Shown here piece by piece: positions 531 to 50,859 of a stretch of 57,762 nt of DNA. The notes under the pieces were generated by a model. That model ran no database searches and was not told the DNA's origin. It saw only the letters and a list, made by a program, of their open reading frames with translations. Both the position numbers and the translations under genes were made by a program. The stretch's first letter is position 1. Each line of letters begins with the position of its first letter. Origin of the DNA: Candidatus Methanoplasma glyptotermitis (lineage in GTDB: Archaea; Thermoplasmatota; Thermoplasmata; Methanomassiliicoccales; Methanomethylophilaceae); the NCBI GenBank assembly GCA_031267895.1, contig JAIRYF010000002.1:1-57762 (forward strand). Direction: 5' to 3'.

Positions 531-3053
531 TCACTGTTCCTTTCTGCGTTTAACGGAGATCTGTCCCGTCAGAGCTGCAGCGGCACATGCGAGGATCGCT
601 GCCGCTATGGCAATCGGAATCCAATAGGATATGCTGCTGCCGGACCCGTTTCCCGGATTGCCTCCGTTTCCTGAACCGATTCCGGAATCGTCACCGTTAC
701 CGCCCGTGTCTTTGCTGTTGTCGCTGCTGCCGTTATTGGTACCGGAACCATCTCCTGGTACTGCATTTACAGTTACTCTGATACTGATATCGGAACGTAC
801 ATCGGATATTCTGTACCACCCGTCTGTCTGAAGAACAATCTTCGCATTTCCGGAAACAACGGAAGGATATGCAACATATCCTTCCGGTGTCTTCACCTTG
901 AAGATAAGATTCTCTCCTTCCGTTACGGTCACCGATGAAGATGCAGAAGAACCGTTAACGTATACGGGATAGTCAGAATCGGAATCAAATACAACAGTAT
1001 ACTGTATCAGATGACCTGATACCGTCAGCAGGATGTGATCCTTTACTTCAGATATGTTTAACGGATTATCTTTGGAATCGTACACCGGAGACTCCTGTCC
1101 TTCTGCAGACCACTTACCGAATGCGTATCCTCTTGACAGCGAAGCGGTTATGGTAAGAGCATCGCCGTGCGTTACGGTGAAGGGTCCGGTGTACTCCGTA
1201 TTGCTTCCGTTGTTGACGGTGTATTTTAAACCGGAGATTCCGGTTTCTTTCGCAAGGGTTACGGTGTACTTGATCTTTGAAGCGGATGCCGTGAGAGATA
1301 TTTTTCCGGAAACCGATGATATATCTAACGGATTACCGGATCCCAAACCTCCCGACCACGCTTTGAGTTCGTATCCTTCCTCGAACAGAGCGGTTATCGA
1401 AAGAGCGTCGCCGTGACTTACGGCGAACGGACCTGCATATGATACAGAAGAGCCGTCACCGACGGTGTATTTGAAACCGGAGATTCCGGTTTCTTTCGCA
1501 AGGGTTACGGTGTACTTGATCTTCGAAGCGGATGCCGTGAGGGATGTGTTTTCGAATACTGGTGATACAGTCAACGGATTACCGGACCCCGAACCTCCTG
1601 ACCATGCTTTGAATTCGTATCCTTTCGACAGCAAGGCGGTTATGGTGAGTTTATCGTCTTGTCCGACGATAAAGGGTTTGGTGTATTCTGTGCTACTGCC
1701 GTTGTTGATACTGTATTTGAAACCGGAGATTCCGGTTTCTTTCGCAAGGGTTACGATATACTTACCGGTCTCCCATCTCAACGTATCATCCCATATGAAT
1801 CTTGCATCTCTGTAACGCAGTTCTCTTCCCGCGGCTCCCGCTATGCCTCTGTCAGAGCCAGTATCGTTGGGGTCATACACACTGCTGATATCTCTGAGCG
1901 TCAGAGACTCCACTACCAATGCATCAGGCAGTGTCCAATTCAAGTTATTCGCCACGCCCTTTTTGAAATATGTATCTATAATGCCGCCCGCAGCGATTTT
2001 TCCGTTATTGTCAAGTCCGCCCGTGATTGTCACCGATTTTAATTTGGCGCAATCTAAGAATGCACGGCCACATATGGATGCACTGTCTGGCATGGTTACA
2101 GATTTCAAATTTTTGCAGTTCCGGAATGCAGAGTCGCCGATGGATGTCACACTGTCCGGTATGACAATGGATATCAGGCCAGTGCAGTCCCTGAATGCGT
2201 CATAGCTGCTGATGGATGTCACACTGTCCGGTATGTCAATGGTTTCCAGGCTGGCGCAACTCATAAATGAATAGCCATGTATTGATTTTACGGTTTCCGG
2301 TATCGTCACATGCTGAAGACTGACGCAGCCGCAAAACAGATACAGACCGATTGATTCCACACCAGCCGGTATTTTTATGGATTCCAGAGCTTTGCAGCCT
2401 GCAAACACATAGCTACTCATGAATGTCACGTTGTCCGGCATTGTTATGGCTTTGAGTTTGATGCAGTCTTGGAATACTCCCACGCCTATGGTGCTCATGG
2501 TATTGGGCATTGTCACATACTCAAGGCCAAAGCAATTTCTGAATGCACTTTCGCCGATGGTTTCCATATTTTTCGGCATGACAACGGAGGTTAATCCGGT
2601 GCAGCCCTGGAATGCGCTGTTGCCGATAGACATCACGCTGTTGCCTATTGTCACGGAGGTTAGGCTTTTGTAACCATTGAATGCGTGTCCGCCAATATGT
2701 GTCACATCTGGCCCTATAATGACACAATTTATGTTTGCTTCATGTTCATACCACGGTGCCCTGGTACCGGGGTTGACATAGTAGTCGTTCATTTTACCGG
2801 TGCCGGATACTGTGAGAACGCCGTCGTCCGTGAAAGTCCACGTCAATCCGCCTCCGCATGTACCGCTGTTGATGTCAACAGCATCCGATTCGTTCGGTTC
2901 GGGGTATGTTATGAAGAATGCCGTTGCGAGAAACAAAGCAACGGCAAACAATACTGCTATACTCAAACGGCTCGGAAAATTGTAATTTTTCCGCCCCCCG
3001 CCCATTTGTGGTTTGGGGGATGAAAGGGTTCCTTTCGAATACTTCATATTCAT
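531..3053 (-). CDS. BspA-type leucine-rich-repeat surface protein with InlB-type B repeats
   Basis: A secreted, membrane-anchored protein of 840 residues. Residues 29-50 form a hydrophobic signal/anchor (core SIAVLFAVALFLATAFF). Residues ~110-355 are about ten 23-residue LRR_5/BspA repeats (pattern LTSVxIPxSVTSIGxxAFxxC). Residues ~410-690 hold three to four Listeria-Bacteroides B repeats (YTVTLAKETGISGFKY...). A Gly/Asn/Ser-rich linker follows, then a C-terminal membrane helix (~809-830) and a basic tail. The start is supported by gggag 9 nt upstream and a TATA-like taaaata at about 3090. Such repeats generally act in adhesion; the ligand is unknown. A G-rich stretch in codons 17-21 (gggcggggggcgg) sits where the second paralogue has an uninterrupted 12-G run. 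Confidence 0.9.
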   Translation of the reverse strand: MNMKYSKGTLSSPKPQMGGGRKNYNFPSRLSIAVLFAVALFLATAFFITYPEPNESDAVDINSGTCGGGLTWTFTDDGVLTVSGTGKMNDYYVNPGTRAPWYEHEANINCVIIGPDVTHIGGHAFNGYKSLTSVTIGNSVMSIGNSAFQGCTGLTSVVMPKNMETIGESAFRNCFGLEYVTMPNTMSTIGVGVFQDCIKLKAITMPDNVTFMSSYVFAGCKALESIKIPAGVESIGLYLFCGCVSLQHVTIPETVKSIHGYSFMSCASLETIDIPDSVTSISSYDAFRDCTGLISIVIPDSVTSIGDSAFRNCKNLKSVTMPDSASICGRAFLDCAKLKSVTITGGLDNNGKIAAGGIIDTYFKKGVANNLNWTLPDALVVESLTLRDISSVYDPNDTGSDRGIAGAAGRELRYRDARFIWDDTLRWETGKYIVTLAKETGISGFKYSINNGSSTEYTKPFIVGQDDKLTITALLSKGYEFKAWSGGSGSGNPLTVSPVFENTSLTASASKIKYTVTLAKETGISGFKYTVGDGSSVSYAGPFAVSHGDALSITALFEEGYELKAWSGGLGSGNPLDISSVSGKISLTASASKIKYTVTLAKETGISGLKYTVNNGSNTEYTGPFTVTHGDALTITASLSRGYAFGKWSAEGQESPVYDSKDNPLNISEVKDHILLTVSGHLIQYTVVFDSDSDYPVYVNGSSASSSVTVTEGENLIFKVKTPEGYVAYPSVVSGNAKIVLQTDGWYRISDVRSDISIRVTVNAVPGDGSGTNNGSSDNSKDTGGNGDDSGIGSGNGGNPGNGSGSSISYWIPIAIAAAILACAAAALTGQISVKRRKEQ
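1055..1770 (-). repeat. DNA-level tandem B repeats inside the surface gene
   Basis: Near-identical blocks encoding YTVTLAKETGISGFKY recur at about 1228-1300, 1468-1540 and 1716-1765, with a period of about 240 bp. The identity at DNA level suggests recent duplication or gene conversion within the gene. Confidence 0.7.
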
Positions 3054-20827: not shown

Positions 20828-23664
20828 TCAGCCCTTCCTGTGTCTGACGAAAGTATGTCCAATCAGAACTGCCGCGATACAGGCAATGAACACTCCGGCT
20901 ATGAGAATCGGAATCCAATAAGATACACCGTTGTTGCCGGATCCGGTTCCCTGATTGTTTCCTGAATCATTACCGTTGCCGGAGTCTTCTCCTGAATCGC
21001 TTCCGGGACCGCTGTCCAAACCATTGCCGTCACCGCCGTCTGCGGTTACGGTTACGGTTACACGTACATTCGAATAAATCTCGGATATTCTGTATGATCC
21101 GTCCTTATGTTCCGAGAGACTGGCTATTCCCTCTATGCTCAGAACTGCACGGTATCCTTCCGGTGTCTGCACACGGAAAAAAGCACTCGCTCCTTCCGTT
21201 ACGGTTAACGGCGAAGATGCAGGAACCCCGTCAACGTATACTGTATAATATGAACCGGAACTGAATGCAATGCTGTAGTACGTATCCGAAGGAGACAGAG
21301 GAACGGGTACAAGGGAAGCATGTGCTGTTAAGGCTGTGTCTCCGGATACTGATGATATCTCTAATAGATTTTCTTCGGAATCCGAACCGGACCACGCTTT
21401 GAATTCGTATCCTCCCACGAACGAGGCGATTATTACGATTTTATCGCCGTGTTCCGCTTTGAATGGTTCAATGTAACCGACGGCTTCGCCGTCATTGATA
21501 CTGTATTCGAAACCTGAAACACCTATTCCTTTCGTGAGGGTTACGGTGTACTCGTTGATTTTAAGATCGATGCTCTTCCCGGGAATCTCTGCGTTCACGG
21601 TAACGTATGCCGTTCCTTCCTCCTGATGGTATCCCGTTACGGTATCAACCGTTATGCTACCGGATGTTCCGTGAGGAACGTTCGGTATGGTGTAGCTGCC
21701 ATTATCATCGGTGGTTACGGGACCGTATGTTATATCTGATACCAAGGATACTTCCACATTCGGTACTGCCGTCCCGCCTGCGGTGACGGTTCCGGATACT
21801 GAGTACTTATTGATTTTCAGATAGAGGTTCAGTCCGGAAAATGATACATTTACAGTAACGGATACGGTTCCCGTCTGATGGTATCCCGGTACGGCTCCGT
21901 CTGCTATAGTTATATCAAGGGATGTTCCGTAGGGAATACCGGATATGGTATATTTTCCGTCTCCGTCTGTTACTGTGTTACCGGTAAAGGATGCATTATC
22001 TGTGTAGGATACTGCTACGTCCGCGGGATCTCCGCCCGTTATGGTTCCCGATACCGTATACTCGCTTGCGCTCAGACTGATATCTTTACCGGTCACGTTT
22101 TCAGAGGATACGGTCACATTTGACAGCGTACTTGTATCGTATCCTGTTTTGGATGCTTTTATGTCTCCGGATGTATTGCCAGGAACATTTGCTATTGTGT
22201 ATTTTCCATCTGAACCTGTGACCGCAGTATACATTCCGGTTGTTCCCAGGGATACTGTTGCGCCTGCGATCCCTGCGGTCGGATTGCTGCTGTCTTTAAC
22301 GGTTCCCGATACGGCATACAGCGATGTAACTTCAGTCCATGATAAACCATCCCACTTGAATACGGCATCTTTGAAATGCAGTTCTTTTCCCCCGAGTCCT
22401 TTTATGTTGTCAGGGCAGTATTCCGAAGAATTGATATCCGGGAGGTACAGGTAACTTGCGACCAAGCCGCTGTTCGGGAATCTCCACTGACTCGACTCAG
22501 CATTTTTGAAATACTTGTCTATGATACCTCCTTCAACGGTTTTTCCCTCAGCGAGTCCGCCTGTGACTATTACGGATGTCAGGCGGTTGCAGTTATAGAA
22601 TGCGTAGCTGCCTATTGTTTTCACACCGTCGGGTATGACTATGTAAGCCAGGTTGGAGCAACCGTTGAATGCATTGTTGCCAATGATCGTAACTTTGTTC
22701 GGTATTATGACGGATGTCAGAGCCGTGCAGCCTTGGAATGTCGCATCGCCGATGGATGTCGCACCTGGCATGTCAACAGATGTCAGGCTGGAGCAACCGT
22801 TGAATGCATTGTTGCCAATGATCGTAACTTTGTTCGGTATTATGACAGATGTCAGAGCCGTGCAGCCTTGGAATGTCTGGGCACCGATGGTTGTAACTTT
22901 GTTCGGTATTATGGCTGATGTCAGAGCCGTGCAGCCTTGGAATGCAGCCATGCCGATGGTATCCACGCTGCCCGGTATCTCGATGTATGTCAATTTATTG
23001 CAACCATAGAATGCCTGAGCACCGATTGTTTTCACACCGTCGGGTATGACTATGTATGTCAGGTTGGTGCAGTTTTGGAATGCCGCCATGCCGATGGATT
23101 CCACGCCATCGTGTATCATCAAGTCTTTGAGGCTGGCGCAACCCGTAAATGTCCAGTTGCCGATGGTATCCACGCTGCCCGGTATCTCAACCGATGTCAG
23201 ATTAGTGCAACCATAGAATGCATAGTTTCCGATGGATGTCACGCCATAGGGTATGACTACGGATGTCAGATTAGTGCAACCGTTGAATGCATAGTTTCCG
23301 ATGGATGTCACGCCAGATTCGATTATAACATCCGTTATGTCCGTTCCATATTCGTCATACCATGGTGCCTTATCACCAGTAGAGTTGGGATTGACATAAT
23401 TGTCCATGCTGCCAGTACCGGATATCGTCATAATGCCGTCTGTAAAGTCCCATGTCAAACTTCCCGTGATCCCGCTTGCGGCATCCGACTCATTCGGTTC
23501 GGAATACGTCACAAAGAATGCTGCTGCGAGAAAGAGAGCAGCCGTGAATAGTACTGTTACATTCAGACGGCGGGAGAAGTTATAATTTCCCCCCCCCCCC
23601 TGCGCAGGCGGTGGGTCTTGACGGAAGAGGAATAACCGATTCCCTTCAGAGATTTTGTATCCAT
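20828..23664 (-). CDS. BspA-type LRR surface protein, signal peptide out of frame at a poly-G tract
   Basis: The main frame (894 residues from GTG 23512) has ~13 BspA repeats, three CarboxypepD_reg-like beta-sandwich modules (YAVSGTVKDS, YTVSGTITGG, YSVSGTVTAG), one B repeat, a Gly/Asn/Ser linker and a C-terminal helix with tail RHRKG. It lacks a signal peptide. The same frame continues upstream without a stop as NYNFSRRLNVTVLFTAALFL..., matching the first paralogue's signal segment. The natural ATG (23664, with gaaggtg upstream) is in another frame; the frames are separated by a 12-G run at 23589-23600. A run of 13 or 10 G would give a full ~945-residue secreted protein. As written the gene is off, or the run is mis-called. 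Confidence 0.85.
22640..22960 (-). repeat. Recently amplified LRR units
   Basis: Two nearly identical blocks of about 100 bp start near 22650 and 22788, a spacing of 138 bp (two 69-bp, 23-codon LRR units). They differ by only a few bases before diverging, and a third partial copy follows at about 22886-22945. This suggests recent tandem duplication inside the array. Confidence 0.75.
23589..23600 (-). repeat. Run of 12 G (minus strand) in the signal-peptide region: candidate phase-variation tract
   Basis: Twelve consecutive C on the plus strand encode the Gly run just before the signal peptide. By coordinate arithmetic, the ATG frame and the body frame differ so that +1 or -2 G restores continuity. 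Runs of this length are prone to replication slippage. The first paralogue has the same Gly stretch but broken by C bases. Confidence 0.8.
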
Positions 23665-42120: not shown

Positions 42121-45099
42121 TCATGACAGCCCAACATATCTTTCAAAAAATTCCATGAGTTTTTCCGTGATGATTGCTTTTTTCTCCCCTCTTCTGCTCT
42201 CTTTGGAAAACATCGATATAGGCAGCATGATCTTATTGAAATCCATTCCGTTTGTTCTCAGCATCCCGTCGCGGAATGCGCGACCGATGAATGTTTGCGT
42301 TTCTTCGGCTTTCAAGCCTTCTTCGATAACGATCCTCTCCAGATCTTTTTCCTTCCTTATGTGCACGAATCTTTCCCACTCTGCGTCAACGTTGGTATCC
42401 GTGTTCACAGAGGCGATGAACTCCTCGATAAGTTCCTTCTTGCTCCGGAGCTTTATGCTGGAAAGTATCGCTTTTGATATGTCTTCTTTAATAACCTTAT
42501 CTTCACACCCAGATCCTCTGTATTTCTCAACCAACATCAGGATATAATCGATGTTGACCTCCGTCTGCTTTATGAGTTCCACTTCGAAAATGAGTTCGCC
42601 GATTATATTCTCCTTATCAACTTTCTTCCCGCTGTAATCCTGATACAGATCAATATACACACTCTGAAACTCCTGGAAATCTCTGGGGGACAATATCTCC
42701 TCATCTGCAAACTCGTCGAAAGATGACAAAATGTTTTTCAGTCTGAGTATGGCGCCGAAAAGTTTGATGAAATTTTTTTCATTCATCTCGCCCAATATCG
42801 GTTCCGAGAATCTTTCCTCCAACTCGCATATCTTCTTTTCATATTCGATATAGTAGTCCTTGTACGGTTTCAGAAGAACTATTCCGCCTGCATCCTTGTT
42901 CCCAAACAGTGCTATCGCATCATCCACGGCCTGTTCCAGGCCTCTGAAACATACGATATTTCCATATGTTTTGACGCTGTTCAGTATGCGGTTGGTCCTT
43001 GAGAACGCCTGTATCAGTCCATGCTGTTTCAGATTTTTATCGACCCACAGAGTATTCAGAGTGGTCGCATCGAATCCGGTGAGGAACATGTTGACCACGA
43101 TGAGCAGATCTATCTCCCGTTCCCTCACTCTTCTTGACAAATCTTTGTAATAGTTTCCAAATTTATCTCCAGACGAGTCGAAATTCGTTTTGAATGTTAC
43201 ATTATAATCGACTATCGCAGAATCCAAAAAGTCCCTGGAACTTCGATCCAATCCTGATGCATTCGGATCCTCATCCGGAAGGGTGTCCGAATCATCATTT
43301 GGTGCGAAACTGTATATCAGAGCGATTTTAAGTTCATTACCGCTGATCTCATTCTGTTTTTTCAGCTCCGCATAATATCTTTTGGCAGCATCTATCGATG
43401 CGGTCGCCAATATTGAATTGAATCCGGACAGTCTCCGATCTCCGAGATTATAGTAGTTGTTCCTTTTTGTTTTCTGACTGAAGTGCTTCAGTATGTACTC
43501 TGATATTTTCTTTACGCGCTCGGGGGCGCACAGTGCCGTCTCACGGTCAATCGCACGCACCTGTGTGTCAAAAATCCTGTCTGATTCCCTGACAGTATCC
43601 ACATAATCTATGCGGAAGGGCAGAACATTGCCATCATTGATTGCATCCACGATCGTATATGAGTGGAGCTTCTGACCGAATGCCTGCTCAGTTGTTTTGA
43701 GAACGGGATTCTTGCCTCCGCCGGCATTCGCAGCAAATATGGGAGTCCCCGTGAATCCAAATATGTGATATCTTTTGAATTTCTTGATTATGGCAGCATG
43801 CATATCACCGAACTGGGAGCGATGGCATTCATCGAAGATCATCACAACATGTTTATCATATACACAGTGGGAACGATTCTTCTTAACGAACACACTTAGT
43901 TTCTGAATAGTCGTTATTATGATCTTGGAATTCAGACTGTTATCTTCCAATTGTTTCTGGAGTATCTTAGTATCGGCATTGCCGTTGGCCGCCCCTTTTT
44001 CGAATCTGTCGTACTCTCTCATTGTCTGATAGTCAAGGTCTTTGCGGTCAACCACAAAAAGCACTTTGTCAATGAAATCAAGACCTCTTGCAAGCTGTGC
44101 GGTCTTGAAGGACGTGAGAGTTTTACCTGATCCGGTTGTATGCCAGACATAGCCTCCGGCTTCTGCAGATCCCATTGTTCTGTAATTGTCGGACATTTGA
44201 ATTCTCTGGAGGATACGTTCAGTAGCTGCAATCTGATACGGACGCATTACCAGGAGCATATCCTCTGCGGTGAACACGCAGTATTTTGTCAAGACGGAGA
44301 GAACGGTGTGCTTGGCAAAGAAGGTCTTCGTGAAATCGACCAGATCGGGTATGGCCTTGTTCGCAGCATCCGCCCACCAGCTTGTGAACTCAAAACTGTT
44401 GCTTGTTTTCTTGGTGCGCCTTGTTATGTCTGTCTCTCTGATATGCTGTTCCCGGGTGGTGTTAGAATAATATTTTGTGTGGACTCCGTTGGAGATGACA
44501 AATACCTGAATATAATCAAACAACCCTGAACCGGACCAGAAACTGTCCCTCTCGTATCTCTTAACCTGATTGAATGCTTCTCTTATTGCAACGCCCCTTC
44601 GTTTGAGTTCAATGTGGATGAGGGGGAGACCGTTGACAAGAATTGTAACATCGTACCTGTTGATTCGTGCACCTTCGGCTTCGTACTGATTTATGATCTG
44701 CAGGCAGTTGGCGTGGATATTTTTCTTGTTGATCAGAGAGATGTTTGTGCTGTGTCCGTCATCGCATTTCAAAACACGGACATGATCGATTTGCATCTTC
44801 CTTGTTTTTTCGACGATGCCTTCGTTTGCATTGGCTATATGTTCGCTGAAAAACCGACCCCACTCCTTATCACTGAATTGGTATGAATTGAGTCTCTCCA
44901 GCTGATATCTGAGGTTAAGTATCAGATCTGCTTCATTCTTGATATCAATGTATTCATAACCTTGCTGGCACAGTGTTTCGATAAACTCTTTTTCAAGAGC
45001 GGCCTCGCTCTGATATTCATGCGACCTGTCCCTGTCTGGAACATATTCGGAAACAACGGTTTCCTCATCTGTGCTGGCAATGATATTGTATGAGCTCAT
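42121..45099 (-). CDS. hsdR: Type I restriction enzyme R subunit (HsdR)
   Basis: 992 residues. N-terminal PD-(D/E)XK nuclease (RYDVTILVNGLPLIHIELKR), then SF2 translocase motifs: Walker A TTGSGKT, DECH box (MIFDECHRSQFG), motif III (FTGTPIF), and the C-terminal helical region that docks on the methylase. It translocates and cuts unmodified DNA as part of HsdR2M2S. Last gene of the eight-gene island; its start overlaps the stop of the DUF1016 gene. Confidence 0.96.
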   Translation of the reverse strand: MSSYNIIASTDEETVVSEYVPDRDRSHEYQSEAALEKEFIETLCQQGYEYIDIKNEADLILNLRYQLERLNSYQFSDKEWGRFFSEHIANANEGIVEKTRKMQIDHVRVLKCDDGHSTNISLINKKNIHANCLQIINQYEAEGARINRYDVTILVNGLPLIHIELKRRGVAIREAFNQVKRYERDSFWSGSGLFDYIQVFVISNGVHTKYYSNTTREQHIRETDITRRTKKTSNSFEFTSWWADAANKAIPDLVDFTKTFFAKHTVLSVLTKYCVFTAEDMLLVMRPYQIAATERILQRIQMSDNYRTMGSAEAGGYVWHTTGSGKTLTSFKTAQLARGLDFIDKVLFVVDRKDLDYQTMREYDRFEKGAANGNADTKILQKQLEDNSLNSKIIITTIQKLSVFVKKNRSHCVYDKHVVMIFDECHRSQFGDMHAAIIKKFKRYHIFGFTGTPIFAANAGGGKNPVLKTTEQAFGQKLHSYTIVDAINDGNVLPFRIDYVDTVRESDRIFDTQVRAIDRETALCAPERVKKISEYILKHFSQKTKRNNYYNLGDRRLSGFNSILATASIDAAKRYYAELKKQNEISGNELKIALIYSFAPNDDSDTLPDEDPNASGLDRSSRDFLDSAIVDYNVTFKTNFDSSGDKFGNYYKDLSRRVREREIDLLIVVNMFLTGFDATTLNTLWVDKNLKQHGLIQAFSRTNRILNSVKTYGNIVCFRGLEQAVDDAIALFGNKDAGGIVLLKPYKDYYIEYEKKICELEERFSEPILGEMNEKNFIKLFGAILRLKNILSSFDEFADEEILSPRDFQEFQSVYIDLYQDYSGKKVDKENIIGELIFEVELIKQTEVNIDYILMLVEKYRGSGCEDKVIKEDISKAILSSIKLRSKKELIEEFIASVNTDTNVDAEWERFVHIRKEKDLERIVIEEGLKAEETQTFIGRAFRDGMLRTNGMDFNKIMLPISMFSKESRRGEKKAIITEKLMEFFERYVGLS

Positions 45100-46151
45100 T
45101 GATTGCCACCGAACGTTTCATCTAATTTCCTCAGTTTGAATATCTCTTTCTGCGCCTCGATCTCGGCGCGGAGTTCCTCCTCAGAAGGAAGGAATAATTT
45201 GTATTTAGAGGCAAAGAGCTGTTTATTGTCTCGAAGTACCGAATAGCGGGCGATATCCTTATCGGTATCTGTACAGAGAACTATACCGAGTGTTGGGTTG
45301 TCTCCCTCCACCCGCTTAAGCTCATCATACATACGGACATACATGTCCATCTGCCCCACATCCTGATGCGTAACCTTAGCGGTTTTCAGATCAATAAGCA
45401 CATAGCATTTCAGATAAATATTATAGAAAACAAGATCAATATAATACTCTTGTTTTTCTGTGTGGATATGCTGTTGGCGCGCCACGAAAGCATATCCTTT
45501 TCCGAGCTCCATCAGAAATTTCTGCAAATTATTGATTATACCAGTTTCCAGATCCGACTCGTTGTAATCGCTGTTTTCGGAAAACCCTAGGAATTCTGCA
45601 ATCACCGGATCTTTGATGAAGATCAGTCTGTCTGTCTCGTAATCCGCAGCCAGTTCTTTAATCTCTCCTTTGACAGGTTTTGCATCGGGGGCCTTCAGCA
45701 TACGGCGGTAGTACTGAGTACTGATATTTCTCTGAAGCGTCCTAACACTCCATGTCTGCTCTGCTGCCTCCTGAAGATACCAATTTCTGGCATTGCTGTC
45801 GTGTACCTGCAGAAGTATCCTGTAATGCGTCCATGATAACAGCTGTGAAGATTGTTTACTCACTGAGTAAAAAATCTCAGGAAACACTCTGTAAAACTGC
45901 GTACGACTGTGCAGATTGGAGTCCGAGCATCCTTTGCCAGTCTCCACAATCCTCGGCATATTCTCCTTTACGGTTTTCCTCAGCGATGCGTTTCTCGATA
46001 AAGGCTGCCTGCGCTGAAGCATCGTGACATTGACCGAACGGAACGTTATTTCGCTTGAAGTATCTGCAGTGGCACGATGGCCTTTGACAAAGTCATCTAT
46101 CAATCTGAGCCGGGAGATCATGTTTGTGTCGTCGTGCACCGCCTGATTCAT
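45096..46151 (-). CDS. DUF1016/YhcG-type PDDEXK nuclease, N-terminus apparently frameshifted
   Basis: 351 residues. The C-terminal half is a clear DUF1016 (PDDEXK) nuclease: D in YIDLVFYN and DLK in VLIDLKTAK. The middle has the family's LSWTHYR and WSVRTLQRNISTQYY. The DUF1016_N part is disturbed: AAFIEKRIAEENRKGEYAE, which fits the family, is encoded in another minus frame at about 45961-46020, while family-like sequence in the main frame resumes at GKGCSDSNL (about 45945). A frameshift plus a short deletion is likely. Such proteins often sit inside Type I systems. The ATG overlaps the hsdS stop. Confidence 0.8.
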   Translation of the reverse strand: MNQAVHDDTNMISRLRLIDDFVKGHRATADTSSEITFRSVNVTMLQRRQPLSRNASLRKTVKENMPRIVETGKGCSDSNLHSRTQFYRVFPEIFYSVSKQSSQLLSWTHYRILLQVHDSNARNWYLQEAAEQTWSVRTLQRNISTQYYRRMLKAPDAKPVKGEIKELAADYETDRLIFIKDPVIAEFLGFSENSDYNESDLETGIINNLQKFLMELGKGYAFVARQQHIHTEKQEYYIDLVFYNIYLKCYVLIDLKTAKVTHQDVGQMDMYVRMYDELKRVEGDNPTLGIVLCTDTDKDIARYSVLRDNKQLFASKYKLFLPSEEELRAEIEAQKEIFKLRKLDETFGGNQ

Positions 46152-46702
46152 GGGTGTGCCTCCTCAAATCTAAATAGTCTGTCTCTGTAGCATTCATATT
46201 GCTTACGACGGGCGGAAATCTCGGCTGGAAGACCGACAGAGATATCATTCAAAAAAGATTCGAATTCGTCCAAGATGGAAACTATTTTATTTTGATCCTC
46301 AACTGCGGGCACTGGTATGAGATAATCCATAATGGCATCCTTATCGCCGCGGGGCATCTTAGCACCCTTAGAGTGCTGCACATTGTAGTCAAAAAAATAG
46401 TCCGATGACAACACATGGTACAGGTATCTGGCATTAACCGTGCGATCATTATGGTTCAGCCTTATTACAAGAACATCTCCGTTCGTTCCGCCATCGCGAT
46501 CTGCAAACCATATCTTTTTCAAATAAGGGCGTATATTGCCGATTAAAATGTCTCTCTTCTTAAATTGGACATGATTTCCCGACTTGGGAACACACCCTGA
46601 GTCTGATCTTCCGCCCCTGTTGGAAATTAAATTATCTACTCCAACATAGTTGGATGGTGTTAACTCAGAAAAATTTATTTTTATTTTAGGGAAGAATGTC
46701 AT
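46148..46702 (-). CDS. hsdS: HsdS C-terminal half (second target-recognition domain)
   Basis: 184 residues holding one target-recognition domain and its conserved helix (IPVPAVEDQNKIVSILDEFE ... RKQYECYRDRLFRF). This repeats the helix that ends the N-terminal half. The ATG overlaps the stop of the N-terminal half (ATGA), so it may be made as a separate half-subunit. With one extra G in the upstream run the two halves become a single frame joined through RATFRRLGK. It reads as the distal part of a normal two-domain specificity subunit. Confidence 0.88.
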   Translation of the reverse strand: MTFFPKIKINFSELTPSNYVGVDNLISNRGGRSDSGCVPKSGNHVQFKKRDILIGNIRPYLKKIWFADRDGGTNGDVLVIRLNHNDRTVNARYLYHVLSSDYFFDYNVQHSKGAKMPRGDKDAIMDYLIPVPAVEDQNKIVSILDEFESFLNDISVGLPAEISARRKQYECYRDRLFRFEEAHP

Positions 46703-47352
46703 TTTTCCGAGTCTCCTGAATGTTGCTCTCCCCCCCCCCTCTGGTCAAAGGTCAGCAGTTTGTTGCGGTAATACTCATATTGTTTTTTTCTCAATTCCAG
46801 CTCAGATTCCAGCTCAGATTCCAGCTGGGTGAATTTGTCAAGGATGCAGGCAATCTCCTGCTGGATTTCGAGTGGGGGAATTGGGATCAGGATAGACTTC
46901 AGTTTCGTGTCACTGGAATGAACAACTTTGCTCTTCACACAACCTCTGCTTTTTTGTCTTTGGATATCATCAGTCGACAGAACATAGGCCAAATACTTCG
47001 GATTTTGTTTATGCTTCATCACAATAATATCGCCACCCGCAAAACAACAATCTCTGCCCATGTATGCACATGATTTTGCTATTTCATTTACACTCTCACC
47101 CGTTATTGCAAAGAGAATATCGCCATATTCGAATGTTTTCAAACCGCTTTTTGTACGAGACACACAATCTTCAAACCATATCCCATAAGTTGTGTAGATT
47201 TCACCGTACCTGACACATGGCTCTCCGTCTTCCGTTATCTCATCGCGTCTGATCCCAGAGCCGCGATACATGTCTGTTGCGATTTCTCCAAGTGTTTTGT
47301 ATACCACCCCATCTGGACACAGTTTGAGGATCAATTGTTCCAATCTGCTCAT
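46699..47352 (-). CDS. hsdS: HsdS N-terminal half (first target-recognition domain), ends just after a poly-G run
   Basis: 217 residues with the usual HsdS beginning (MSRLEQLILKLCPDGVVYKT), target-recognition domain 1 and the first conserved helix (LIPIPPLEIQQEIACILDKF ... RKKQYEYYRNKLLTF). The frame passes the 10-G run (46730-46739) and stops 10 codons later. Three ELES-type repeats lie in the spacer helix. The intact gene would be 401 residues, the standard HsdS length. This subunit sets DNA sequence specificity for both methylation and restriction. Confidence 0.88.
   Translation of the reverse strand: MSRLEQLILKLCPDGVVYKTLGEIATDMYRGSGIRRDEITEDGEPCVRYGEIYTTYGIWFEDCVSRTKSGLKTFEYGDILFAITGESVNEIAKSCAYMGRDCCFAGGDIIVMKHKQNPKYLAYVLSTDDIQRQKSRGCVKSKVVHSSDTKLKSILIPIPPLEIQQEIACILDKFTQLESELESELELRKKQYEYYRNKLLTFDQRGGGEQHSGDSEK
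46730..46739 (-). repeat. Run of 10 G between the two halves of hsdS: candidate phase-variation switch
   Basis: Ten consecutive C on the plus strand. With 10 G the upstream frame ends at a TGA that overlaps the downstream ATG. With 11 or 8 G the frames fuse into full-length HsdS. The location, between the two recognition domains, is where slippage would toggle between half-subunits and a full specificity subunit. Confidence 0.8.
46792..46827 (-). repeat. Three 12-bp tandem repeats in the HsdS spacer helix
   Basis: Units of 12 bp encode QLES, ELES, ELEL in a row. In the EcoR124 family the number of such four-residue repeats in the central helix sets the spacing between the two halves of the recognition site, and changes by recombination. 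This array is in the equivalent place. Confidence 0.75.
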
Positions 47353-47353
47353 T

Positions 47354-48262
47354 TCATTGTCCTCTTTTTGCGCTGTTATCCGGTTTGATCTTCATTATCA
47401 ATTCTGCCTGTTTATTCTTCTCCCGAATATTATCAAGTATTATCTTTAGAATATCACGTAAGAGTTCATACTTATCAAGTCCTGCTTTGTCATCTGCATC
47501 TCCATGAATGAGATCGCTCATCTCACCAAATAAACCGTAGGCATGATCCTTCATATCAATTGGAACAATTTTGGCTACCTTGTCTGCCTCTTCTAACGTC
47601 TGTTTAAAATTGCTTGGCCTATCGACTTCATTCTCAGCCAATATTCTGAAGAGTAACGACTCATATGATTTGCGAAGATATATTATCGAACCTGCCCCAA
47701 ACCCAAGGCCGTATGATCTTTCGGCTTTCGCCAAAAAACTGTACTCCGTCGGGAAATCATTAGCATAGTTTGATAGCAATTGCAGTCGGCTGATGTTTTG
47801 ATCCGGATATTCTCCGATTTTGACTACGCTTAAGCTGCAGCCTATCTCTCTTTTGCTGTCTTTATCATAGCATGATTCTTTTTCGAGGACGTAGCAAAAA
47901 TATGCCGGACTTTTACAAACCGGACATTCGGTCTTGATTGTTACACTGTTTCCAAAAGGTAGGGATAACTCTGTCTCTATCTGTTCATTCTCATTTTTTC
48001 CGTAAATCGTGCCATAATTGACGGGGTATTCGTTTGCTTGTACTTGACGTAAAACTGCACTGAGATAATCTGAATAACCATATGCGCTACCAGAAAATGT
48101 TTTTACCCTGCCACATGTCACACAAAACAAGTCCGCTGATACTTTTGTTTCGTTGTAGCTATCTTTGATTTGTTCATCGTCGGATAGCACACGTTCTGTA
48201 AAAATCGGCTTGTCCGCCAACTCGGAGAATATTTTTAGCGGGTGATCACTCATCTGGTTCAC
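47354..48262 (-). CDS. DUF4145-like protein with zinc-binding cysteines, in the RM operon
   Basis: 302 residues. Two Cys pairs (CVTC near residue 48, CPVC near 114) suggest a zinc-binding N-terminal half. The C-terminal half (YLRKSYESLLFRIL, then MSDLIHGDADDKAG) has the pattern of DUF4145, a domain common in restriction systems with no proven activity. It overlaps the rhuM end and stops one base before hsdS, so it is an integral operon member. Accessory or regulatory role inferred from context only. Confidence 0.65.
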   Translation of the reverse strand: MNQMSDHPLKIFSELADKPIFTERVLSDDEQIKDSYNETKVSADLFCVTCGRVKTFSGSAYGYSDYLSAVLRQVQANEYPVNYGTIYGKNENEQIETELSLPFGNSVTIKTECPVCKSPAYFCYVLEKESCYDKDSKREIGCSLSVVKIGEYPDQNISRLQLLSNYANDFPTEYSFLAKAERSYGLGFGAGSIIYLRKSYESLLFRILAENEVDRPSNFKQTLEEADKVAKIVPIDMKDHAYGLFGEMSDLIHGDADDKAGLDKYELLRDILKIILDNIREKNKQAELIMKIKPDNSAKRGQ

Positions 48263-49283
48263 CTCTAGATAGCTCTGAATTACTAGAATCTGTACCTTCC
48301 TGATTCTTCGACAGTTGCTTCACCGCACGATCGAAATCGCTCTCGAGCTGTCGCATCTCACGTGCCCGGTATATCTCAAACTCCTTCTCCGCTTTCTCCA
48401 ACGCCTGTTTGTGGGAGATCTTGCCTTTGCCTGTAAGGACCTGCCGTTTCAGACTGACGATCTGATTATCAAGAGCAGATATCCAATCATTCATGGTCAT
48501 CGGATTCTGCTCCAGTGCCTGAAATTCCGCAAAATCCAGGAACTGAGATACGAGCAGATTCAATCTCTGCAATTCGATCTCCGACAGGTAATTTTTGGCA
48601 ATCTTGACGTCGTCCCTCATTATATAATCGCCTTTGAAGTTCGTCATTCCAACAAGCGGTTTCTCATTGTTCGCTCTATCGTAAATGACTTCGGCCGCAG
48701 TATGTTCGTGAACCGCAAAATGCAGTTTATTTTGTACTGTCGCAAAGAAATTTTTTGTCAAATCCAAGCGAGGATCATAGTCTGTTGCCGTGGCATAGAT
48801 ATCAGTTATCTGCTGATAGAAATTCCGCTCACTGCTACGAATGTCACGGATGCGCTGCAGCAATTCACGGAAATAGCGCGAACCGTTACCTTGTTTCAAC
48901 CGCTCGTCGTCCATGACGAATCCTTTCTGTATGTACTCGTGCAGTCTCTCTGTCGCCCAGCGTCTGAAACGTGTTGCGATCTGAGATTGGGCGCGATAGC
49001 CAATCGCAATCACCACGTCCAAATTGTAGTGATCGACGTTACGTCTGACTTGTCTGTCTCCCTCTGTTCGAACCAACAAGTATTTCTTGTGAGTTGCTCC
49101 GTCGGACAGTTCGCCATCTGAGTATACGTTGCTTATGTGCAACGCAACATTCTGTTGCGTAGTATCATATATCTCCGCAATCTGTTTTTGCGTGAGCCAG
49201 ATATCCTCGTCGGCAAAACGGACGGATACTTTTGTTATCCCATTATCGTCCTGATACAAGATTATCCTGTTATCTTCATCCAT
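48246..49283 (-). CDS. rhuM: RhuM-family protein in the RM operon
   Basis: 345 residues. The N-terminal RhuM (virulence) domain is clear: VRFADEDIWLTQKQIAEIYD, then VDHYNLDVVIAIGYRAQSQ and FRRWATERLHEYI. The C-terminus is a long coiled coil (KALEKAEKEFEIYRAREMRQ-like). The N-terminal part resembles phage antirepressor DNA-binding domains. RhuM genes are frequent passengers of Type I systems; the function is unproven. The start at ATG 49283 has gagggag upstream and overlaps the hsdM stop. Confidence 0.88.
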   Translation of the reverse strand: MDEDNRIILYQDDNGITKVSVRFADEDIWLTQKQIAEIYDTTQQNVALHISNVYSDGELSDGATHKKYLLVRTEGDRQVRRNVDHYNLDVVIAIGYRAQSQIATRFRRWATERLHEYIQKGFVMDDERLKQGNGSRYFRELLQRIRDIRSSERNFYQQITDIYATATDYDPRLDLTKNFFATVQNKLHFAVHEHTAAEVIYDRANNEKPLVGMTNFKGDYIMRDDVKIAKNYLSEIELQRLNLLVSQFLDFAEFQALEQNPMTMNDWISALDNQIVSLKRQVLTGKGKISHKQALEKAEKEFEIYRAREMRQLESDFDRAVKQLSKNQEGTDSSNSELSRGEPDE

Positions 49284-50859
49284 CGTTCCGATCTCCCTCA
49301 ATATCTGCTATTATCTTCTCGATCTCCTCGCGCAGAACGTTCTCTCTTGCGACGATCTCCCTGATCTCTGCGTTCAGTTTTACGATATCGATCTCTTCCC
49401 GAGTGTCCTCTTTCTCAACATACTGATTAACAGACAGGCTGTATTCTTTGGATGAGATTTCCTCGTTCGGGACCAATCTGGAAAAATGATCCTCGCTCAT
49501 TCTCTCTTTGTATGCCTCTAAAATCCTGGATATGTTCTTGTCTGTCAGTTTGTTACTGTTGGTGATTTTCACAAATTCCTCGCTTGCATCGATAAACAGC
49601 GTAGAATTCTCGCTCTTCGATTTCCTGAGGACAATTATGCACGTTGCGATCGTTGTTCCATAGAACAGATTTTCCGGCAACTGGATTATGCAGTCGATGA
49701 AATTGTTGTCCACGAGGTATTTTCTGATCTTCTGTTCGGCACCCTTCCTGTACAATACGCCGGGGAACTCGACTATCGCCGCAGTCCCGTTCGTTGAAAG
49801 CCATGACAGACAATGCATAACAAAAGCAAGATCCGCTTTGGATTTCGGTGCGAGTACCCCCGCGGGAGAGAATCTCGGATCATTTATCAGCAGCGGATCG
49901 GAATCGCCTTTCCATCTTATGGAATAAGGAGGATTGGAAACAATCGCTTCGAAAGGTTCATCATCCCAATGCATCGGCTCGGTCAGAGTGTCTCCGTGGG
50001 CGACATCAAACTTATCATAACCAATATCATGCAGGAACATGTTGATCCTGCATAGGTTGTAAGTTGTGATGTTGATCTCCTGCCCAAAGAATCCCCGACG
50101 GACGTTGTCCTTTCCGAGTATCTTGGCAAACTTCAGCAACAAAGATCCGGAACCGCATGCCGGATCATACACCTTGTTAACTTCCGTTTTCCCGACCAAC
50201 GTGATCCTTGTCAGCAATTCTGAGACCTCTTGAGGAGTGTAGTACTCTCCTCCGGATTTGCCTGCGCTGCCCGCGTACATTCCCATAAGGAATTCGTAGG
50301 CATCACCAAACGCATCGATCGTGTTATCTCCGTACCTCTCGTTGAGTTTCATCTCGGCAACGCCGTTCATCAGATTCACCAGTCTTCCGTTGCGTTGAGC
50401 GACCGTTCCGCCGAGTTTATTGCTGTTTACATCCAGATCATCGAACAATCCTTTGAAATCATTCTCACTCTCCGTTCCTTTCGCGGAAGCCTCGATATTG
50501 CTGAAGGCCCGTTCCAGGGTCATGTTTAGGTTCTCATCCTTTTCCGCCCTTTTGAGTACGCTGCAGAAAAGTTCACTGGGAAGAATGAAAAATCCTTTTG
50601 TATCCACCAACTCGGATCTTGCATTTTCCGCATCGGTATCCGGCAGTTCTGAGTATCTGAAGGCTGCATTTCCTGCCTCGCGTTCATTTCTTTCGATGAA
50701 CTCAGACAGATTCTCGGAGATGTAACGGTAAAAGAGCATACCTAACACATATTGTTTGAAATCCCATCCGTCAACGCTTCCCCGGAGGTCATTGGCAATA
50801 TTCCATATTACGCGGTGAAGTTCCGCACGTTCCTGTTCTTTTCTGTTATTCTCAGCCAT
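49276..50859 (-). CDS. hsdM: Type I DNA methyltransferase subunit (HsdM)
   Basis: 527 residues. N-terminal HsdM helical domain (LRGSVDGWDFKQYVLGMLFY), SAM site DPACGSGSLL and N6-adenine motif NPPYSIRW. It methylates adenines at the site chosen by HsdS and protects the host. The C-terminal tail is a coiled coil that contacts HsdS. Second gene of the island, directly behind the HARE-HTH gene. Confidence 0.96.
   Translation of the reverse strand: MAENNRKEQERAELHRVIWNIANDLRGSVDGWDFKQYVLGMLFYRYISENLSEFIERNEREAGNAAFRYSELPDTDAENARSELVDTKGFFILPSELFCSVLKRAEKDENLNMTLERAFSNIEASAKGTESENDFKGLFDDLDVNSNKLGGTVAQRNGRLVNLMNGVAEMKLNERYGDNTIDAFGDAYEFLMGMYAGSAGKSGGEYYTPQEVSELLTRITLVGKTEVNKVYDPACGSGSLLLKFAKILGKDNVRRGFFGQEINITTYNLCRINMFLHDIGYDKFDVAHGDTLTEPMHWDDEPFEAIVSNPPYSIRWKGDSDPLLINDPRFSPAGVLAPKSKADLAFVMHCLSWLSTNGTAAIVEFPGVLYRKGAEQKIRKYLVDNNFIDCIIQLPENLFYGTTIATCIIVLRKSKSENSTLFIDASEEFVKITNSNKLTDKNISRILEAYKERMSEDHFSRLVPNEEISSKEYSLSVNQYVEKEDTREEIDIVKLNAEIREIVARENVLREEIEKIIADIEGDRNDG

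Follow-up and report, generated by a model that had tools for sequence, protein, structure and literature searches.

The window analysed here, a stretch of 57,762 nucleotides from Candidatus Methanoplasma glyptotermitis, lies on contig 17 of a 72-contig, 1.717-Mb genome, and because mcrA is encoded in the same genome the organism is a methanogenic archaeon. The minus strand of the window harbours a Type I restriction-modification operon in the order hsdM, a RhuM-family gene, a gene of unknown family, hsdS, a YhcG nuclease gene and hsdR (Table 1). The Type I set is complete, with hsdR, hsdM and hsdS all matched in searches of Pfam and PADLOC, and the operon is intact over its whole length. Only for the 302-aa product of the gene next to hsdS was no match found in Pfam or PADLOC.

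Table 1. Positions of the operon genes, G tracts and tract-associated features in the window.
Feature	Position	Strand	Evidence or remark
Leader of paralogue with interrupted tract GGGCGGGGGGCGG, in frame	2781..2999	-	open 841-aa frame
LRR_5/CarboxypepD_reg surface protein body, 919 aa after tract	20831..23587	-	LRR_5 1.1e-93
Second window tract, G12	23589..23600	-	large BspA-type surface protein, closed at 12 G and open at 10 or 13 G
hsdR, EcoR124-like restriction subunit, 992 aa	42121..45099	-	HSDR_N, EcoR124_C, T1R_D3-like; PADLOC REase_I 1144 bits
YhcG/DUF1016 PDDEXK nuclease, same operon	45096..46151	-	YhcG_C 1.2e-53; PADLOC PDC-S02
hsdS C-half, TRD2 + conserved region 2, 184 aa	46148..46702	-	ORF; Pfam Methylase_S 1.1e-9
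hsdS N-half, TRD1 + conserved region 1, 217 aa at 10 G	46699..47352	-	ORF; Pfam Methylase_S 4.1e-13
AGGAG, Shine-Dalgarno-like	46713..46717	-	~10 nt ahead of C-half ATG
G10 tract, proposed switch	46730..46739	-	CR1/TRD2 junction of hsdS
302-aa protein, unknown family, between hsdS and RhuM gene	47354..48262	-	no match in Pfam or PADLOC
RhuM-family gene between hsdM and hsdS	48246..49301	-	Virulence_RhuM 1.8e-106; PADLOC PDC-S05
hsdM, methylation subunit, 527 aa	49276..50859	-	N6_Mtase 7.7e-113, HsdM_N 5.6e-22

The split hsdS and its relatives

The coding strand of hsdS carries a homopolymeric tract of ten G (C10 on the plus strand) at codon 204, well within the coding region. A first-pass annotation of the window had described the gene as split exactly at this run, with one recognition domain in each half and with the TGA of the N-half overlapping the ATG of the C-half; these claims held when open reading frames and Pfam matches were inspected, the overlap reading ATGA. 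The N-half also matches the EcoR124II HsdS structure 7bst in the PDB at 7e-22. Apart from the frameshift at the G run there is no other stop in either half, and both pass the Pfam cut-offs. The two Methylase_S domains correspond to two TRDs and two conserved helical regions, and the fused frame aligns over its full length with one-piece bacterial HsdS proteins. Methylase_S matches in this genome were confined to this one locus.

When tract lengths of 8 to 13 G were simulated, the length was found to set whether a full-length or a truncated HsdS is encoded. Eight G gave a fused protein of 400 aa and 11 G one of 401 aa, while 9, 10 and 12 G gave N-halves of 221, 217 and 222 aa, respectively. The earlier claim that gaining one G or losing two would restore a gene of 401 codons was therefore right for the gain and only partly right for the loss, which leaves 400. 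At 9 or 12 G the stop of the N-half falls 14 nt beyond the ATG of the C-half. Given the AGGAG ahead of that ATG, it is possible that the 10-G allele yields the second half too, an inference from the sequence; a 5-mer of Shine-Dalgarno type precedes only 2.1% of the ATGs in the window by chance, and comparable motifs accompany hsdM and the YhcG gene. In the fused frame, the codons from the tract to the internal ATG (..FRRLGKMT..) match the conserved beginning of TRD2, which in a Treponema relative reads ..WMTLGEVT.., and this conserved LGxxT start is translated in the fused state only. Because the fused frame retains it, the full-length hsdS gene is considered real.

Bacterial relatives of this HsdS are mostly one-piece proteins of about 386-430 aa and are found mostly in gut Firmicutes and spirochaetes. 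The best match to the N-half, with 72% identity, is encoded in Treponema (locus L010), where a 7-bp frame-shifting tandem repeat, (GACAGCA)n, occupies the same protein junction, and other bacterial hsdS relatives have short repeats (TDRQ, RE, SKQA) after the same YEYYRxxLLxF motif. The loci with short tandem repeats after this CR motif were L010, L028, L036-L047 and L055. From the repeats at the same junction we infer that it is a recurrent site of slippage repeats in bacterial hsdS. Within the genus no close hsd orthologue was found, the best HsdM identity being 34%, and the hsdS tract can for this reason not be compared between strains. The predominance of gut Firmicutes and spirochaetes among the HsdS relatives, together with an HsdM lacking close relatives in the genus, makes horizontal acquisition the probable origin of the archaeal hsd system.

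The hsdS of a further species of the genus, G014, is likewise split, here at a run of nine G (locus L201): its product is 208 aa at 9 G and a single 380-aa protein at 10 G. No similarity was detectable between this gene and the first hsdS. The recurrence of the arrangement in another species is shown. Methylase_S matches were present in 22 of the 102 genomes of the family, and among 30 fetched hsdS loci these two were the only ones with runs of at least 9 G.

Poly-G tracts across the genome

What the first-pass annotation had overlooked is a larger finding, a genome-wide poly-G repertoire. Two runs of at least 10 G or C occur in the window against about 0.08 expected from its own dinucleotides, and the whole genome has 94 G runs of at least 10 (range 10-13). 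The length distribution was examined over 0.99 Mb, a portion containing all 94 runs, where about 0.08 would be expected from the way shorter runs decay with length. C/G runs number a handful at 7 nt, are nearly absent at 8-9 and form a second peak at 10-13, whereas A and T runs decay plainly with length and show no such peak. Most tracts of the genome (11-13 G) are longer than the one in hsdS with its 10 G, which may mean slower switching of hsdS. In a 295-genome sample of the phylum, runs of at least 11 numbered 76 in this genome, 56 in its genus mate G002 and 15 in the next, with none in most genomes.

The placement of the tracts is equally distinctive. Among 40 runs of at least 10 G leading into open reading frames of at least 250 aa, 12 were in frame (random expectation 1/3, P = 0.74), as opposed to 32 of 36 control runs of 6-7 G (Fisher P = 1.5e-7). 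The median distance from the start was 30 codons for the long tracts versus 105 for the short runs. Neutral coding of poly-Gly was considered and rejected, since the tracts would then be in frame. On the G strand 44 runs feed an open reading frame of at least 150 aa, and 35 of these frames encode BspA-type LRR_5 surface proteins; among the remaining products are a D12 adenine methyltransferase, HsdS and two periplasmic-binding proteins. Tract phases are spread over all three frames and lengths over 10-13 nt. Both the abundance of the tracts and the scrambling of their phases are shown, and three features expected of contingency loci are present: an excess of tracts, a frame-setting placement with mixed ON and OFF states, and surface and restriction-modification targets. 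A high rate of reversible switching, also expected of such loci, is inferred.

Most of the tract-fed LRR_5 proteins have a common leader, in which the tract encodes glycine just before a signal-peptide-like segment, and 51 matches to this leader were counted. Elsewhere in the genus this family of leaders is essentially absent, and its tracts can consequently not be compared as orthologues. The second tract of the window precedes a member of the BspA-type repertoire (Table 1). A paralogue in which the tract is interrupted but in frame looks like a naturally locked-ON copy, as inferred from its sequence. Contig ends near tracts were also considered as evidence of length heterogeneity; this was rejected, as the breaks fall in the leader of about 119 bp common to the paralogues. 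Other members of the genus are poly-G rich too, with 63 tracts in G002, about 20 in G004 and 37 in G011; a further genus mate, G016, has 9. Where sampled, tracts in these genomes belonged to Listeria-Bacteroides-repeat or LRR_5 surface proteins, and the G000-type leader family was not among them.

Tracts are also found in other defence genes. The D12 adenine methyltransferase gene (L093:17396-19599), which adjoins a Type II-REase-like gene (DUF6996/6997), has a G11 between its FLKWAGGK and YYEPFVG motifs; at this assembled length the gene is OFF, whereas 10 or 13 G would open it. A ResIII-domain gene is split at a G12 beside an intact N6_N4 methyltransferase gene (L104:4652-9402), and from their domains the pair is inferred to be a Type III-like restriction-modification system, the split gene being the Type III-like restriction helicase. 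An uncharacterised gene upstream of BREX-like brxP and brxC is broken at a G13 (L101:5049-13536). A third species of the genus, G011, encodes a Type ISP restriction-modification enzyme in which an in-frame G11 closely follows a Walker A-like motif (L233:8289-13196).

Profile searches for MutS and NucS returned nothing in 17 of 17 genomes of the genus, while the named controls were detected; a single profile was used for each protein, and some of the genomes are incomplete. That no such repair genes are detectable is shown within these limits. Their absence would favour instability of the tracts, the slippage rate itself being inferred. On its own it fails to account for the contrast between species, as tract-poor and tract-rich members both lack these proteins.

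Alternative explanations for the split

The split could be a sequencing or assembly error, the true run being 11 G and hsdS intact, with the apparent break an artefact of base calling. Homopolymers are where errors of this kind usually arise, only a single assembly is available, PCR stutter could move the assembled length by one, and the fused protein is the conserved form. Against this, four of seven contig-end pairs sharing terminal sequence overlap by exactly 119 bp, from which a short-read k-mer assembly is inferred, and homopolymer indels are less of a risk in such assemblies than with 454 or nanopore. Moreover, the 28 of 40 ORF-leading tracts that are out of frame would need a systematic error, errors of plus or minus one cannot create an excess of 94 tracts, and the layout of hsdS recurs in G014. 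Error is thus an unlikely explanation, and error alone is rejected as the cause of the split in view of the tract excess, the out-of-frame tracts and the G014 recurrence.

A fixed two-gene HsdS, in which coupled half-subunits are produced, the G run is incidental and no switching takes place in practice, is also improbable. In its favour are the ATGA overlap and the AGGAG 10 nt before the second ATG, and half-subunit HsdS pairs do exist in nature. However, the conserved TRD2 residues upstream of that ATG would be lost in a permanently split gene, and a stable G10 is unlikely in view of the genome-wide tracts and the absence of MutS and NucS.

Programmed ribosomal or transcriptional slippage, by which a single, unchanged DNA allele would yield the fused as well as the split product, has little to recommend it as the main explanation. 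Poly-G can be slippery for polymerases, and two products would fit the ATGA overlap, but the other tracts span three phases and 10-13 nt, as slippage at the DNA level predicts. Conserved programmed sites, on the other hand, keep one length. As an additional leak, such slippage remains possible and is not excluded. Decay of hsdS into a pseudogene broken by a frameshift, suggested by the one-base shift that splits the gene, was rejected as very unlikely given the lack of any other stop, the passing of Pfam cut-offs by both halves, the intact operon and a break that, like the one in G014, coincides exactly with the inter-domain tract.

The proposed switch and known systems

We consider the G10 of hsdS to be, in all likelihood, a slipped-strand contingency switch, while no read-level mixture of lengths, switching rate or methylation data are at hand. 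This interpretation is supported by the 94 tracts with scrambled phases across the genome, by the unrelated hsdS in the genus that is likewise split at a G9, by the 7-bp repeat at the same junction in the Treponema relative of the N-half and by the lack of detectable MutS and NucS in the genus. The inferred short-read assembly adds to this in that it makes long-read homopolymer error improbable as the sole cause. The sequence of the locus and its frames are shown; how often the run slips is inferred.

According to the proposed mechanism, the gain of one G or the loss of two would join TRD1-CR1 to TRD2-CR2 into one HsdS that, as inferred from normal HsdS biology, would recognise a bipartite target. 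At 10 or 13 G two half-subunits would be encoded, the second through the stop/start coupling offered by ATGA and AGGAG, and by analogy with the NgoAV system of Neisseria gonorrhoeae these would dimerise with another specificity. At 9 or 12 G the C-half would perhaps be made less well, with the stop of the N-half 14 nt downstream of its start. The hsdS run is one of about 94 poly-G runs in the genome; the length of many of these decides whether a large surface protein is in frame, and the same holds for no fewer than two further restriction-modification genes. In a lineage without detectable MutS/NucS mismatch repair such runs should be unstable, and the predicted outcome is variation from cell to cell in the surface coat and in DNA methylation and restriction, heterogeneity in the living population being itself an inference. 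That slippage toggles hsdS between a full subunit and two halves, as the first-pass annotation had proposed, is well supported by evidence from outside this sequence, while the accompanying change in methylation is inferred only.

A bolder reading is that this archaeon and some of its sister species run a bacterial-style, genome-wide programme of poly-G phase variation, comprising about 94 tracts, more than 40 of them feeding long open reading frames, and covering the BspA-type repertoire, Type I specificity, the D12 methyltransferase and the Type III-like Res. We regard this joint claim as likely, with switching itself inferred; its extension to the BREX-associated gene is no more than possible. 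If the reading is true, no contingency-locus genome and no phase-variable HsdS would have been known from archaea before. Simple-repeat phase variation, which is regarded as bacterial, would then be shown in a second domain, and the strategy would be placed in a gut-associated lineage without an obvious history of immune evasion. It would become testable whether viruses, hosts or neighbours act as drivers and whether loss of mismatch repair is permissive. Gene callers, for their part, will report many frameshifted pseudogenes in such genomes.

An older survey of 18 archaeal genomes found mainly an excess of poly-A/T, with runs reaching 7-9 bases (PMC2831843). In a 2025 review, the archaeal distribution of simple-repeat phase variation is left to future work (PMC11868660). 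No report of an archaeal poly-G hsdS or of a genome-wide archaeal repertoire was met in the literature searched, outside of which many subscription papers remain, and this agrees with the earlier statement that no archaeal case was known. The poly-G hsdS mechanism is known from bacteria through NgoAV; the genome-wide archaeal repertoire appears to be new.

In the Type I system NgoAV, a poly-G in hsdS gives full-length and truncated HsdS that differ in specificity (PMC7394358, citing Adamczyk-Poplawska 2011). The archaeal gene is similar in that the length of a G run in hsdS decides between a full-length and a truncated product, and a change of specificity between its forms is assumed by analogy with NgoAV, without methylation data. 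It differs in its archaeal host, in the overlapping ATG and Shine-Dalgarno-like site that can also give the C-half, and in being accompanied by about 94 tracts in the genome. A REBASE survey, cited in a follow-up paper, found that 7.9% of Type I hsdS genes contain simple sequence repeats (PMC7394358); these share with the present gene short repeats within hsdS and a predicted phase variation, but no archaeon is mentioned in the follow-up paper. As in recombination-switched hsdS such as the pneumococcal SpnIII, phase-variable HsdS specificity is proposed here, but SpnIII-type loci depend on DNA inversion among hsdS copies, while the archaeal genome has a single hsdS with a homopolymer. In Campylobacter, Helicobacter and Neisseria, numerous G tracts with lengths of about 8-13 lie close to the 5' end of genes for surface proteins and restriction-modification, in mixed phases. 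The repertoire described here resembles these contingency genes in its many tracts in surface and restriction-modification genes and in its mixed phases, and it differs from them in belonging to an archaeon and in having as its chief target a large BspA-type LRR_5 family with a common leader.
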